From contig JARCRS010000090.1 in assembly GCA_029850555.1 (NCBI GenBank), positions 1 to 34,630 of the forward strand: a stretch of 34,630 nucleotides of DNA, read 5' to 3'. Shown in pieces: positions 8,871-16,491 of this stretch. Positions within the stretch are counted from its first letter, which is position 1, and every line of letters starts with the position of its first letter. A program made the translations under genes and the position numbers. Below the pieces are notes generated by a model. It ran no database searches. It was not told where the DNA came from and worked only from the letters and a program-made list of their open reading frames with translations. The DNA comes from an archaeon. GTDB lineage: Archaea > Thermoproteota > Nitrososphaeria > Nitrososphaerales > CADDZS01.

Positions 8871-9167
8871 ATGTCAAAGGAATTAGTGAAAAGACAGGCC
8901 CCTGCTTCTTACTACTCCAAGATACTTGAGCAGATTCCTATAGGGCGATCAATCTGGCTCAAATTCAGAAGCGAGAACTCTACAACATATCTTCGACTAG
9001 ACAGAATTGACAAGGACTTGTTCAAACTTCACGGTGAAAAGTCTCGAAGCCATAGCGGCAACGAGGAAAGAATATCCGAAATCATCCAAAGATCTCCATA
9101 TCTCAGCAAATCAGTTCCTCTCGAAATTGAGGTCTTGCCAAAAGAGGAGCAGGAGAAAGGCAGCTAG
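8871..9167 (+). CDS. 98-residue protein of unknown function
   Basis: Starts with ATG and begins MSKELVKRQAPASYYSKILE. It is highly charged, with a predicted beta segment (SIWLKFRSEN..TYLRLDRIDKDLFKLHG) and helical ends. No cysteines, membrane segment or known motif. It follows the amidase gene by 48 nt and could be co-transcribed. The strand-like middle (hydrophobic residues alternating with charged ones) suggests a small folded domain. The family is not recognised. Confidence 0.65.
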   Translation: MSKELVKRQAPASYYSKILEQIPIGRSIWLKFRSENSTTYLRLDRIDKDLFKLHGEKSRSHSGNEERISEIIQRSPYLSKSVPLEIEVLPKEEQEKGS

Positions 9168-9220: not shown

Positions 9221-10018
9221 TTATTTCTCAGTTAGAACAAACTCGCAGAACGAGTCTCCGAGAGCCGCACATTTTGTCTCGGTACAATTCACTTTTTTCT
9301 GAAAGATAGTGTTTATGAGCCCAGTCATGTGGCCGCGGATAAAATAGCTGTGTGGTTTCGTCGATTTCTGCCCAGCGCACTCAAAGGAATCATAGAGCCT
9401 TATAGTGGCACTGAATGGAATCGCATTGAATCTAACAAGCTCAGGCCTTCCCCAACCAAGAGTGAGGTACAGATTGCTGAGCTCTGGTATACTCTGCTGC
9501 GCCAAATCCTTGCCAAAGACCTCAATCAGTCTTCGCCCATCACTTTCTCCAGTGGCTTCCCCTTCTTCAAATACAATCGTCTCTCCGCCTGTTCCAAATA
9601 TCTCGCCGAGCCGCTTGAACATATCACTGAAAACCTCTTTTCTTGCAAGAATCATGGTCTCTCCCGAATTCAATTTCAATGGAAAATGAATAGTATCGAC
9701 AACTAATCCTTCTTCTGTTCCCTCGACAACGCTGCTCCCAGTCACGTAAGGCGAACTGTCAATTAGTTTCTTAAGCTGGGAAGCTCGCACATCCTTTTCA
9801 CTCTCTGCAAAAAAACCCCAAACTCCAATTTGTGACACTGGATTCATCGAAGTAAAACCACCCAATGCTGTTATCCCTGAACTGGAGAGAATCGAAGTTA
9901 TGCTGGCTAATGCCCTGGGGTCACTTTTCATTTCGATGGAAACTAAGAATACTTTCTTCTTTGGGTTGAAGTGATACCCGATAGTTTCCTTTACCTTTGG
10001 ACCTAGCTCACGCGGCAT
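9221..10018 (-). CDS. ACT-like plus V4R (4-vinyl reductase) domain protein
   Basis: 265 residues. Residues about 22-100 look like an ACT domain (VFLVSIEMKSDPRALASITSIL.. GFTSM), a fold that senses amino acids or other small ligands. Residues about 120-265 match the V4R domain: helical middle, RLYDSFECAGQ (C214), a long segment with FIRGHMTGLINTIF, and the terminal signature NCTETKCAALGDSFCEFVL (C245, C250, C258). V4R domains bind small hydrophobic or aromatic molecules in regulators such as DmpR/XylR and in BchJ-like proteins. No DNA-binding domain is present, so it may be a ligand-binding partner rather than a transcription factor. It follows the zinc-ribbon prenyl-synthase-like gene by 82 nt with its own TATA-like box. 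Confidence 0.87.
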   Translation of the reverse strand: MPRELGPKVKETIGYHFNPKKKVFLVSIEMKSDPRALASITSILSSSGITALGGFTSMNPVSQIGVWGFFAESEKDVRASQLKKLIDSSPYVTGSSVVEGTEEGLVVDTIHFPLKLNSGETMILARKEVFSDMFKRLGEIFGTGGETIVFEEGEATGESDGRRLIEVFGKDLAQQSIPELSNLYLTLGWGRPELVRFNAIPFSATIRLYDSFECAGQKSTKPHSYFIRGHMTGLINTIFQKKVNCTETKCAALGDSFCEFVLTEK

Positions 10019-10043
10019 TTTTGTTTACGCGTTCCCAAGCGTC

Positions 10044-10054
10044 TTCTATAAACG
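10044..10054 (-). promoter_or_regulatory. TATA-like box for the V4R gene
   Basis: On the minus strand the element reads CGTTTATAGAA, centred about 31 nt before the ATG at 10018, which fits a short leader of a few bases. It indicates that the V4R gene can be transcribed separately from the upstream prenyl-synthase-like gene. Confidence 0.5.
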
Positions 10055-10100
10055 TATCAGATGTGTACGAGAATTTGTCACAATTTGGTGTTGGACTATC

Positions 10101-11063
10101 TCAAATCAATGGAATTTCAGAGATCTTGCAGAGGTTTCTAAGTTTCCTCTGCGCTTGTGTCGGCTTGAGCTTATCGGTGCATTTTATCGCCTCTGAAGTT
10201 AGATCTCTACTTTCTGAGAGGGCCCTTTCCCTGTAAGACTTTGGATAGTCAGGATCTCCAGAATCGTCGAAGAGCTGGTTAGCAGTCCCCATTGCCATTC
10301 CATAATTCTTCAAGAGCAAGATTTCTTCTTCAGAGCCTTTCCCGACAATACCTCCTGCGGTAGTTCCAGCTGCGACGAGTATTCCTCTTTTGCCTTCTGC
10401 AAGCCTAACTCCCTCCTCAAAGGTTAGGTCAGCTTTCGACCTTTTAGCTAGTTTCTCTTCCTCCTCTGCGCGAGAGGAATCGCCAAATGCAGACCTAAAA
10501 GTTCTCATGAGCCGATCGGATTCCCCTCTTCCCAAAATAGAATCGTAGGCAGAGAGCGCTTCAAACATTTCGGAAACGAGCCATAGTGCGAGTGGTATTG
10601 CGACAGGATCTCCGAACTCTTTCCATACAGTCCTTTTTCCTCTTCTTTCGTTTGTCCGGTCCATTATATCATCAAAAATCCTTCCTGCTATCAACCCAAG
10701 TGAATAGCTATAAGACAAAACCAGCGCATCGTAGGATCTCCCTCCGACCGCTTCACATGATATTTGTGGAATGACGGCGCCAATCAAATGATCATTCATG
10801 TTAATCGCATAGAGTACTGCAGGTTGATCTTTATGCAACTCTAGCAGCTTTGTATTAACTGGACGAACATAATTAACAAACTCGTATGAATTGCGTATTA
10901 ATTCATTGGAATCATCTGGAATCGATAATTTTGTTGTTGGTACGCTTGCCGAGCCTGCGAGAAAACGAACATCCAAAAGAGAATCTTTCATGAACAATCC
11001 GCACGAAGAGCAGTATCTCTCGCCCTCTGAGATTTCATTTCCGCAGTTAATGCAATGAATCAA
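10101..11063 (-). CDS. zinc-ribbon fused to isoprenyl-diphosphate-synthase-like domain, paralogue 1
   Basis: 320 residues from a TTG, the only start that keeps the N-terminal zinc ribbon (C4-x2-C7, C18-x2-C21). After a linker of about 40 residues, residues 60-315 resemble class I trans-isoprenyl diphosphate synthases. The first Asp-rich motif is DDIMD (131-135) followed by ERRGKRT, and the second is DDSGD (266-270) after ANQLF. These bind Mg-diphosphate in true synthases. The usual substrate-binding GGKxxRP is replaced by LHKDQPAV, so activity may be altered. The zinc ribbon is not a normal part of such enzymes. It could tether the protein to nucleic acid or partner proteins. The paralogue at 11684-12670 is about 70% identical by eye. 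Products are unknown. Confidence 0.88.
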   Translation of the reverse strand: MIHCINCGNEISEGERYCSSCGLFMKDSLLDVRFLAGSASVPTTKLSIPDDSNELIRNSYEFVNYVRPVNTKLLELHKDQPAVLYAINMNDHLIGAVIPQISCEAVGGRSYDALVLSYSYSLGLIAGRIFDDIMDRTNERRGKRTVWKEFGDPVAIPLALWLVSEMFEALSAYDSILGRGESDRLMRTFRSAFGDSSRAEEEEKLAKRSKADLTFEEGVRLAEGKRGILVAAGTTAGGIVGKGSEEEILLLKNYGMAMGTANQLFDDSGDPDYPKSYRERALSESRDLTSEAIKCTDKLKPTQAQRKLRNLCKISEIPLI

Positions 11064-11083
11064 CTCGAGATGCCTGAGGGCCG

Positions 11084-11095
11084 CAATAAAATTCG
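11084..11095 (-). promoter_or_regulatory. TATA-like box for paralogue 1
   Basis: Minus-strand CGAATTTTATTG, centred about 26 nt before the TTG start at 11063. It supports a leaderless transcript and the TTG start, and gives the gene a promoter facing away from the SCP2 gene. Confidence 0.45.
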
Positions 11096-11159
11096 ATTTC
11101 GTTGTTAGCGCTTATGGATTTGTGGTAAGGAGCCCATATCCATAATGCCTCAAGATTGT

Positions 11160-11169
11160 CTTTATAAAA
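11160..11169 (+). promoter_or_regulatory. TATA box for the SCP2-like gene
   Basis: CTTTATAAAA is close to the archaeal consensus. Transcription would start near 11190, leaving a short leader before the ATG at 11204; a GAGGTG sequence at 11187-11192 could act as a weak Shine-Dalgarno site. This promoter lies back to back with that of paralogue 1. Confidence 0.6.
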
Positions 11170-11203
11170 AGTGGAAAAGACCTTGTGAGGTGTATAACGT
11201 CTC

Positions 11204-11641
11204 ATGCTCGTATTTCCAAGCAAGGAATGGGTCGACAGTTTCGTTGAAAAACTAAATTCCAGTCCAGAGTTTGCCGAAGCTGGCGAAAATTGGGTAGGGG
11301 ATATTTTATTTGTGGTTGATAAGGACGAGAATTTTCCTAGGACGTCATGCGTCTATCTTGATCTATTCGAAGGAAAGTGTAGGAGGTTCGAGTATCACGA
11401 CGATTGCGCGGAATCAAAAATGCCTAAATCAGAATTCAAGTACATTGGACCATACAAAAACTGGGTCAGGCTAATCAACAAGGAGATAGATCCAATACAG
11501 GGAATAATTACAGGCAGGTTCAAACTAGATGGGCCAATAATGAAAATAATTACATACAGAAAAGCAGCAAAGGAGATCGTCAACGTTGCAGCAACGATAG
11601 AAAGCGATATTCAAAAAGAAAAGAAAACGACTACGATTTGA
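11204..11641 (+). CDS. SCP2 sterol-binding-domain-like lipid carrier
   Basis: 145 residues from ATG. The sequence follows the SCP2 fold: first helix KEWVDSFVEKLNSSPEFAEA, strands GDILFVVDKD and TSCVYLDLFEGKCRRFEY, then IGPYKNWVRLINKEIDPIQG, IITGRFKLDG and a C-terminal helix starting IMKIITYRKAAKEIVNVA. SCP2 proteins carry a hydrophobic ligand such as a fatty acyl chain or isoprenoid in a central cavity. No fusion or targeting signal is seen, so it should be cytoplasmic. It sits between the two prenyl-synthase-like paralogues, divergent from one and convergent with the other. A role in handling an isoprenoid ligand is a reasonable guess from context only. Confidence 0.85.
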   Translation: MLVFPSKEWVDSFVEKLNSSPEFAEAGENWVGDILFVVDKDENFPRTSCVYLDLFEGKCRRFEYHDDCAESKMPKSEFKYIGPYKNWVRLINKEIDPIQGIITGRFKLDGPIMKIITYRKAAKEIVNVAATIESDIQKEKKTTTI

Positions 11642-11683
11642 ATATTCGACACAAAGATCGAATCTACTAGGTTTTTTAAAAAA

Positions 11684-12670
11684 TCATAGTAGTGGGATTT
11701 CGGACATTTTGCACAGCTCTCGGAGCTTTCTCTGTGCTTCTGTGTTCCTTAGTTGGTCAGTTGATTTTATGCCCTCGGCTGTTAAATCTCTACTTTCCGC
11801 AAGAGCCTTTTCTCTGTATGATTGTGGATAATCGGGATCTCTAGAGTCATCAAATAGCTGATTTGAGGTACCCATTGCCATTCCATAATTTTTCAATAGT
11901 TCAATTTCAAGTTCTGTTCCGCCTCCGACAATACCTCCTGCGGTAGTTCCAGCTGCGACTAATATTCCTCTCTTTCCCTGTGCTAGCTTTATTCCTTCTC
12001 CGAAGGTCAGGGAAGCTTTGGATCTTGTAGCTAGTTTCTCCTCCTCTTCTGCACGCGCGGATTCTGCAAGAGCCAATCTGAAAATTCTGTTAACTCTTTC
12101 AGAGCTAACCCGCCCTAAGGTTAGGTCGTACGTAGATAGTGCCTCAAACATTTCAGAGACGAGCTGGAGTCCCAGAGGAATTGCAACAGGATCGCCAAAC
12201 TGCCTCCACAGAGTCCTCTTTCCTCTTCTCTCGTTTGTCCTGTCCATCATGTCATCGCAAATTCTTCCGGCTATCAAGCCAAGCGAATAGGCATAAGCGA
12301 GGTCTATGGCGTCGTATGCCTTGCCTCCGACAGCTTCGCAGCAGATTTGAGGTAATATAGCACCGATGAGATGATCGTCCATGTTAATGGCGTATATCAC
12401 TGCGGGTTGGTCCTTGTGAGATTCTAACAATTTCGCATTAACAGGGCGAATGTAATCGACTAATTCATACAGCGGTCCTTGGGTAAAGTCGATTGTAGGT
12501 TTTAGGACGCTGCCACTCAAATTGGAGGGAATTTCAAGAGTCGTTGGTTTAAGCGAAGTAGCTACAAGAAAGCCTAGATCTGAGGATGCATCTCTTAGAC
12601 GAATTCCACACGAAGGGCAGAATCTATGATAGTGTGAGATTTCTCTTCCGCACTTCGGGCAAGAGGGCAA
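11684..12670 (-). CDS. zinc-ribbon fused to isoprenyl-diphosphate-synthase-like domain, paralogue 2
   Basis: 328 residues from a TTG. A zinc ribbon (C4, C7, C18, C21: CPKCGREI..FCPSCG) precedes the synthase-like domain at about 68-325. The first Asp-rich motif is DDMMD (139-143) with ERRGKRT following, and the second is DDSRD (274-278). As in its neighbour, HKDQPAV stands where GGKxxRP is expected. The N-terminal linker is longer and differs from paralogue 1, while the catalytic region is strongly conserved; both end in SEIPL plus one residue. A very good TATA box about 29 nt upstream confirms the TTG start. The pair looks like a local duplication interrupted by the SCP2 gene. Retention of both Asp motifs in both copies argues for selection on diphosphate binding. 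Confidence 0.88.
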   Translation of the reverse strand: MPSCPKCGREISHYHRFCPSCGIRLRDASSDLGFLVATSLKPTTLEIPSNLSGSVLKPTIDFTQGPLYELVDYIRPVNAKLLESHKDQPAVIYAINMDDHLIGAILPQICCEAVGGKAYDAIDLAYAYSLGLIAGRICDDMMDRTNERRGKRTLWRQFGDPVAIPLGLQLVSEMFEALSTYDLTLGRVSSERVNRIFRLALAESARAEEEEKLATRSKASLTFGEGIKLAQGKRGILVAAGTTAGGIVGGGTELEIELLKNYGMAMGTSNQLFDDSRDPDYPQSYREKALAESRDLTAEGIKSTDQLRNTEAQRKLRELCKMSEIPLL

Positions 12671-15420: not shown

Positions 15421-16491
15421 TTGTTGCTTGCGAACATTGAATTAGAATTAGCTCCCAAGGATGCATTCGAACAATTTGTTGCGCAGCTAAAAGACAGTCT
15501 TAAGACACGAAAAATAGAATTCAATTTAGGCGAAAAAGTAGAGATCCATCAGGGCCTCGTGAAAATTGGGCAAGTTGTGGTATGGCAGCCCCCTAAGAAA
15601 ATTGAAATTGATTGGTATACCGCCGCGACATGGAATCCTAACGATACGTCAAAGCTCAAGTTTGAATTCGAAGGGCTTCCAAATGGAGGAACGAGAATTA
15701 CCATAGAAAACGAAGGATGGGGAAGCCTTGTCGAAGATCGTGGAAATCGTCTATCGGAGTGGTTTGCAGATGAAATAGCTGCAAATCTCATCGACGCAAC
15801 TAGTCCGAGGCGGTTTGTGAACTGGCTAACAGACAGAAGAGCTCGAAGGCCGATGGGGGCTATGGCTCGAGAGGGTTACCGGGATCCTGTGTATCATCGC
15901 CCAAATTTCTTGGCACTCTTTGACTATCTTAAACTGAAGAAAGAAGATTATCTTCTCGAAGTGGGCTGCGGTGGGGGAGCTTTCCTCTTCGAAGCTCTGA
16001 AATCTGGTTGCAGGGCGGCTGCGATTGACCACAGTCCTGACATGGTGATGGTCGCCAAAGAACTGAATTCCTCGGCAATTGCGGAAAAGCGCCTAGAAAT
16101 ACTCGAATCAGAAGCCGAATCTCTTCCGTTTCCCGACGGTAAGTTCACCTGCGCTGTTTGTACTGGAGTCTTTGGTTTTATTGACAGGCCTGTCGTAGTA
16201 TTGTCCGAAGTATGCAGAGTGATGGTTAAAGGGGGCAGACTGATCGTATTCGTAAGTACTAAGGAGCTCAAGGGCACACCAGCAGCGCCGGAGCCTATCG
16301 CTTCCCAGCTGCACTTTTACGAAGATCAACAGCTTGTACAGCTAGCTCACCAAGGTGGCTTTGAGGAAGCGAGAGTTGAGAGAATTAGTTTTGAAGAGTA
16401 CGCACGCCAAGCCAAGATCCCTCAAGAAGCAATGGGCCTATTTTCCTCCGATGCTAGAAACGCTCAGCTTCTTTTAGCTCAGAAAATCTAG
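15421..16491 (+). CDS. SRPBCC (AHSA1-like) domain fused to SAM methyltransferase
   Basis: 356 residues. Residues 1-135 look like an SRPBCC/AHSA1 ligand-binding domain (ELELAPKDAFEQFVAQLKD, IDWYTAATW, KFEFEGLPNGGTRITIENEGW, then the long C-terminal helix). Residues about 150-350 are a class I methyltransferase with motif I LLEVGCGGGAFLFEA (178-192), AAAIDHSPDMV, LESEAESLPFPDGKF and a ubiE-like VLSEVCRVMVKGGRLIVFV. The SRPBCC cavity could hold the hydrophobic substrate for the methyltransferase. Two adjacent TTG codons are possible starts, both served by the SD site. It follows the previous gene by 24 nt and precedes the next by 15 nt, so co-transcription is very likely. Confidence 0.9.
   Translation: MLLANIELELAPKDAFEQFVAQLKDSLKTRKIEFNLGEKVEIHQGLVKIGQVVVWQPPKKIEIDWYTAATWNPNDTSKLKFEFEGLPNGGTRITIENEGWGSLVEDRGNRLSEWFADEIAANLIDATSPRRFVNWLTDRRARRPMGAMAREGYRDPVYHRPNFLALFDYLKLKKEDYLLEVGCGGGAFLFEALKSGCRAAAIDHSPDMVMVAKELNSSAIAEKRLEILESEAESLPFPDGKFTCAVCTGVFGFIDRPVVVLSEVCRVMVKGGRLIVFVSTKELKGTPAAPEPIASQLHFYEDQQLVQLAHQGGFEEARVERISFEEYARQAKIPQEAMGLFSSDARNAQLLLAQKI

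Follow-up and report, generated by a model that had tools for sequence, protein, structure and literature searches.

What could be the function of two neighboring archaeal genes, each of which joins a four-Cys zinc ribbon to a domain resembling class I prenyl synthases? The genes, IDS-A and IDS-B, lie in a 34,630-nucleotide stretch of DNA (the window) from a draft Nitrososphaerales genome (G000; 88% complete, 5% contaminated), and the fusion was noticed in a first-pass annotation made from the letters of the window.

Architecture and conservation of the gene pair

11684..12670, minus strand: IDS-A, zinc ribbon and an isoprenyl diphosphate synthase (IDS) domain predicted to lack the IPP site; 328 aa; TTG start (ATG in the G001 ortholog)
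10101..11063, minus strand: IDS-B, paralog of IDS-A with the same architecture; 320 aa
12596..12670, minus strand: zinc ribbon of IDS-A, C4-x2-C7-x10-C18-x2-C21; Cys in 4/4 homologs
10989..11063, minus strand: zinc ribbon of IDS-B; PF13240, 26.5 bits

Both open reading frames are as described in the first-pass annotation and are 67-70% identical to each other. In both of them the N-terminal CxxC-x10-CxxC motif (C4, C7, C18 and C21) is followed by the IDS domain, with some 30-40 poorly conserved linker residues in between. Among the profile matches, Zn_Ribbon_1 (PF13240) is over its 25-bit cut-off in IDS-B and just under it in IDS-A (24.2 bits), and the trans-isoprenyl-diphosphate-synthase family (PF00348) scores 64 and 60 bits in the pair, with a cut-off of 27. 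The PF00348 match extends from profile position 41 (IDS-A) or 57 (IDS-B) to 190-196 of 251, the unmatched ends being those with the GKxxR loop and the part following the second Asp-rich motif (SARM). Neither protein has a Pfam match to a classic terpene-synthase family, and the SARM is DDSxD, not an NSE/DTE triad. IDS-A and IDS-B are small, probably soluble proteins.

Both genes were found in the same order and at the same spacing on contig JASHNZ010000038.1 of G001, a Nitrososphaerales metagenome-assembled genome (MAG) representing a second species of the genus (identity of 87% for IDS-A and about 83% for IDS-B); the pair is known from these two draft genomes, belonging to two species. All four proteins retain the four Cys residues, while the first 80 residues of the other IDSs examined (36 of 36) are free of such a motif. 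The fusion of the ribbon with the IDS domain is real, and the ribbon is predicted to bind zinc. A mis-start as the source of the ribbon was considered and rejected, as the IDS-A ortholog in G001 begins with ATG at MPSCPKCG. TATA-like sequences seen by eye approximately 30 bp 5' of IDS-A, and also 5' of the SCP2 gene described below, fit the assigned starts. A search of openly accessible journal papers yielded no published account of a zinc ribbon joined to a polyprenyl synthetase, its one result being an unrelated paper.

The TTG starts and the incomplete, partly contaminated draft would be compatible with an artefact, that is, a mis-start, an assembly chimera or a decaying duplicate, which we consider extremely improbable. 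This explanation is refuted by the orthologs: the fusion, the gene order and the spacing are repeated in the second genome of the genus, with ATG for IDS-A, and the GC content is as in the neighboring genes. Between the two species, pN and pS of the IDS domain are 0.06 and 0.76 for IDS-A and 0.07 and 0.51 for IDS-B, demonstrating strong purifying selection, and since pN is well below pS, the genes are not decaying. The Asp motifs are invariant in both paralogs.

In the unrooted tree the two IDS-A proteins separate from the two IDS-B proteins, hence the duplication is older than the split of the two species. With midpoint rooting, the four proteins group in a 100/100 clade that sits on a branch of 3.19 and includes none of the 36 other IDSs. 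Close kinship with the other divergent IDS clade of the class (RH or DLQNN type) was also considered and is contradicted by this separate 100/100 clade. Within the family, the pair is present in two of nine genomes. A search of 400 genomes of the class (E 1e-22) gave no further members, its weaker matches (1e-24 to 1e-29) being three ordinary IDSs of the order, which keep GKxxR; nor did a search of 398 genomes of the phylum, a sample overlapping that of the class, at 1e-26. A scan of contigs from 84,980 species by short exact peptide patterns, which reaches close relatives only, returned just the G001 contig, and the plasmids and viral contigs searched contained no relative of the pair.

The active site and the predicted structure

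In established IDS biochemistry, GKxxR and a His/Gln hold IPP, while Mg and the allylic diphosphate are held by residues that are kept in the pair. We aligned the four pair proteins from G000 and G001 with the 36 other IDSs of the class. All four retain D1, D2 and D5 of the first Asp-rich motif, both Arg of RR, the Lys of KT, the Gln of QxxDD, and D1, D2 and D5 of the second motif; the DDIMD/DDSGD, DDMMD/DDSRD and ERRGKRT motifs listed in the first-pass annotation are all found. Three positions conserved in 36 of 36 other IDSs are changed in four of four pair proteins: the K and R of GKxxR (H and G instead), the helix-D His/Gln, located seven residues ahead of the first DDxxD (Leu), and the Thr/Ser of KT (Arg, giving KR). 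Moreover, the segment GKPxxxDxxxGKxT after the SARM is deleted in IDS-A and IDS-B together with its helix. This deletion is not diagnostic and perhaps tolerated, because short IDSs of the class (about 285 aa) also lack GKPxxxDxxxGK. The deletion and the changes of the helix-D His and the KT Thr go beyond what had been noticed earlier.

12398..12418, minus strand: IDS-A HKDQPAV (residues 85-91), lineage-specific; HKDQ..V invariant in 4/4
12362..12379, minus strand: IDS-A DDHLIG (residues 98-103), in place of the IPP-binding GGKRxR by alignment
12242..12256, minus strand: IDS-A first Asp-rich motif DDMMD (139-143) by alignment, followed by RTNERRGKRT
11969..11974, minus strand: IDS-A KR (233-234) instead of the KT motif, by alignment
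11837..11851, minus strand: IDS-A second Asp-rich motif DDSRD (274-278) by alignment, with GKPxxxDxxxGK deleted after it
10779..10796, minus strand: IDS-B NDHLIG instead of GGKRxR, by alignment
10659..10673, minus strand: IDS-B first Asp-rich motif DDIMD
10254..10268, minus strand: IDS-B second Asp-rich motif DDSGD

It had been claimed that both proteins replace the GGKxxRP substrate loop with HKDQPAV. The loop is lost, but its true equivalent is DDHLIG in IDS-A and NDHLIG in IDS-B: GGKRxRPVLxLLACEAVGG aligns without gaps with (D/N)DHL(I/A)GA(I/V)xPQIxCEAVGG, anchored on CEAVGG. HKDQPAV begins 13 residues upstream of this substitute loop and aligns to a region with no conservation among the other IDSs. 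Extra charge near the active site comes from R136, which precedes the first DDxxD by three residues, and from the Arg at the KT position.

Judged by these residues, the active site is predicted to have lost its IPP side and to retain an intact allylic/Mg side. The suspicion of a non-standard role therefore stands, although an enzyme with a different allylic substrate, proposed earlier along with a sensor and a regulatory subunit, is the weaker of these three options, since the changed site is that for IPP (homoallylic) and not the allylic one.

An AlphaFold2 model built from eight sequences (mean pLDDT 78.9, pTM 0.74) has an all-helical IDS domain, with pLDDT mostly about 77-97 by ten-residue block, a disordered linker (27-66) and a ribbon with pLDDT around 75. 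In the model, DDHLIG lies directly before helix B, and the SARM helix (253-276) leads straight to helix 283-305, so that the post-SARM helix is absent. The best matches among solved structures, found by Foldseek, are GFPP/GGPP synthases (E 1e-9, probability 1.00, TM-score for the target about 0.7-0.8).

A four-gene unit and its neighborhood

9221..12670, no single strand: four-gene unit (ACT-V4R, IDS-B, SCP2, IDS-A), in G000 and G001, missing at the same site in G002 and G003
11204..11641, plus strand: SCP2-like gene (sterol-carrier/lipid-transfer fold) between the paralogs; PF02036, 21.2 bits, 0.1 under the cut-off
9221..10018, minus strand: ACT-like plus V4R, predicted ligand-binding regulator; ACT part assigned from a relative in locus L079

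The SCP2 gene is divergent from IDS-B and convergent with IDS-A; its paralog in G001 scores 29.9 bits with PF02036. In G001 (L114:3678-6711) and G003 (L110:4976-10471), a paralog of SCP2 adjoins a gene for an iron-containing alcohol dehydrogenase, and an aldehyde dehydrogenase gene follows directly or lies close by. The ACT-V4R gene has its own promoter-like TTTATA, conserved in G001, and hence co-transcription with IDS-B is not required. Binding of hydrophobic ligands has been suggested for V4R domains (PMC2253512).

None of V4R, IDS-B, SCP2 and IDS-A occurs at the formamidase/NUDIX site in G002 and G003, and since the contigs span the site, this absence is not a gap. The joint absence implies that the four genes came or went as a set, and the simpler history is a gain in the ancestor shared by G000 and G001. 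At the edges of the island, no mobile-element repeats were seen, and the GC content is like that of the neighbors, with no shift. At this site G002 carries an ORF that by eye resembles a family I inorganic pyrophosphatase (L112:2762-3277), and G003 a small hydrophobic ORF.

Other genomes of the genus have the NUDIX gene, an F420-type LLM oxidoreductase and methyltransferases but not the unit, and these neighbors provide no evidence on it. Within the unit, no gene is clearly a tailoring or terpene gene, and only SCP2 and V4R accompany the pair. Elsewhere in the window, the gene at 15421-16491 encodes a methyltransferase with a fused N-terminal AHSA1 domain and belongs to a run of three methyltransferases after the LLM oxidoreductase, the LLM gene and the first two methyltransferases being also found in G003. 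The 98-aa ORF at 8871-9167 has no Pfam family, and comparison with stretches of G001, G002, G003 and G004 gave no match for it.

A different IDS-containing cluster recurs in Nitrososphaeria: a divergent full-length IDS with KaiC-like ATPases and a membrane protein (weak MASE2/DUF835/DUF7504 matches) at loci L079, L080, L081, L084, L086, L087 (contig C56 of G000, the window's own genome) and L088. In its IDS the first Asp-rich motif is followed by RH or RR, and DxxxGK reads DLQNN/DLENN; genes for a UbiA prenyltransferase and for a winged helix protein of the AsnC type are present in several of the clusters. The whole is suggestive of a prenyl-lipid or sensory system. Adjacency of V4R to IDSs outside the unit is weak, being observed for two of about 29 V4R genes (in G005 and G055), both by an IDS-KaiC cluster of this kind.

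Possible functions and relation to known proteins

We tentatively favor, at close to an even chance, the explanation that IDS-A and IDS-B are IDS-derived, IPP-independent class I enzymes that act on an allylic prenyl diphosphate in a terpene-synthase-like manner. We hold it the most likely one because the allylic/Mg half of the site is kept and the IPP half erased, as in IDS-derived terpene synthases. The purifying selection on the IDS domain, the modeled fold and the co-occurrence of the pair with SCP2 and V4R speak for it as well. Each paralog would bind an allylic prenyl diphosphate, which could be supplied by the four other IDSs of the host, through a Mg cluster formed by both DDxxD motifs, with the first Arg of RR, Lys233 and Gln271. 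The bound diphosphate would be ionized, and the cation, with no IPP pocket for elongation, would be quenched inside the cavity or by water, possibly yielding a terpene-like hydrocarbon or alcohol. The ribbon may be a docking or assembly module, and the two paralogs may form a heterodimer. SCP2 would be a possible carrier of the hydrophobic product, and ACT-V4R a possible sensor of it. The extra Arg charge could suit binding rather than carbocation chemistry and counts against such an enzyme, as do the lack of a classic terpene-synthase Pfam match, the DDSxD form of the SARM, the post-SARM deletion, the shortage of clear tailoring or terpene genes in the unit, the marginal SCP2 score and the occurrence in just two draft genomes. 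That pair, carrier and sensor together make up a self-contained archaeal terpenoid signaling or lipid module is an unlikely extension.

The same extra Arg residues close to the diphosphate site, the deleted lid segment after the SARM and the adjoining V4R regulator would suit a non-catalytic prenyl-diphosphate sensor or regulatory subunit, which binds the allylic diphosphate with Mg and signals or docks through the ribbon, possibly to ACT-V4R or to one of the host's four other IDSs; zinc ribbons are common interaction modules. We regard this as rather unlikely, though the strongest of the alternatives: inactive termite FPPS-like proteins have disrupted Asp motifs (PMC13143122), whereas here both are kept under strong purifying selection. 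Lower still we place transfer of the allylic cation to an acceptor other than IPP, a nucleophile held by the NMDDHLIG/HKDQPAV region. The replacement of the IPP loop by an invariant new one (NM[DN]DHLxG and HKDQ..V in 4/4) is what a new binding site would look like, but the unit has no gene providing an acceptor, and no characterized precedent was found in the literature searched. Very unlikely, finally, is a still chain-elongating IDS with an unusual IPP site. PF00348 over its cut-off, the IDS fold, RR and both DDxxD motifs agree with it; on the other hand, the K and R of GKxxR, the helix-D His/Gln and the KT Thr are all lost, fungal and insect enzymes lose IDS activity when this Arg or the KKxR motif is changed (PMC7484799), and G000 encodes four other IDSs that score strongly with PF00348.

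With the trans-IDSs (PF00348; GGPP/GFPP synthases, PDB 1wy0, 5jfq, 5e8h) the pair shares the fold, both DDxxD motifs, RR and the allylic-site Lys and Gln; it differs in the loss of GKxxR, the helix-D His/Gln, the KT Thr and the post-SARM segment, and in the gain of the N-terminal ribbon. Short archaeal IDSs of about 285 aa (the type of loci L004, L020, L021 and L023-L027; NCBIfam GFPS_Meth, 285 positions) also have no GKPxxxDxxxGK after the SARM, but keep GKxxR, His/Gln and KT, have no ribbon and form a separate clade. Non-catalytic partner subunits of IDSs (the small component of HexPS/HepPS, the plant SSU) lack Asp motifs; the pair may resemble them in a regulatory or partner role, but keeps both motifs.

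The IDS-derived terpene synthases of insects and Melampsora are, like the pair, of IDS descent, with the first Asp motif kept and IPP-binding residues lost. In fungi, R81P at the IPP-site Arg removes IDS activity and brings terpene synthase activity, one fungal ILTPS keeps an ordinary second Asp motif, and in insects the change of KKxR to SDAW removes IDS activity (PMC7484799). In a sandfly terpene synthase, substitutions affect 12 of the 15 residues that contact IPP (PMC10962984). Most motifs other than the first Asp-rich one, which is retained, have been lost from termite GGPPS-like proteins, and in termite terpene synthases a change of the KT Thr alters the product (PMC13143122). These enzymes are eukaryotic, with no ribbon reported, whereas the pair's second motif stays DDSxD; the origin of the pair is presumably independent of theirs. 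A literature search restricted to openly accessible journal papers brought up no archaeal terpene synthase.

Most of what is known on how chain-elongating synthases give rise to terpene synthases comes from insects and fungi. If the IPP site was indeed erased, the allylic site kept and a domain added, the same route would have been taken in archaea, giving a prokaryotic case, and if the unit is a terpenoid module, the pair would represent a lineage of archaeal terpene synthases with direct descent from an IDS and, to our knowledge, the first with a zinc ribbon. Should the pair act as a sensor instead, prenyl diphosphates would be sensed by a protein in organisms whose membranes consist of isoprenoids.
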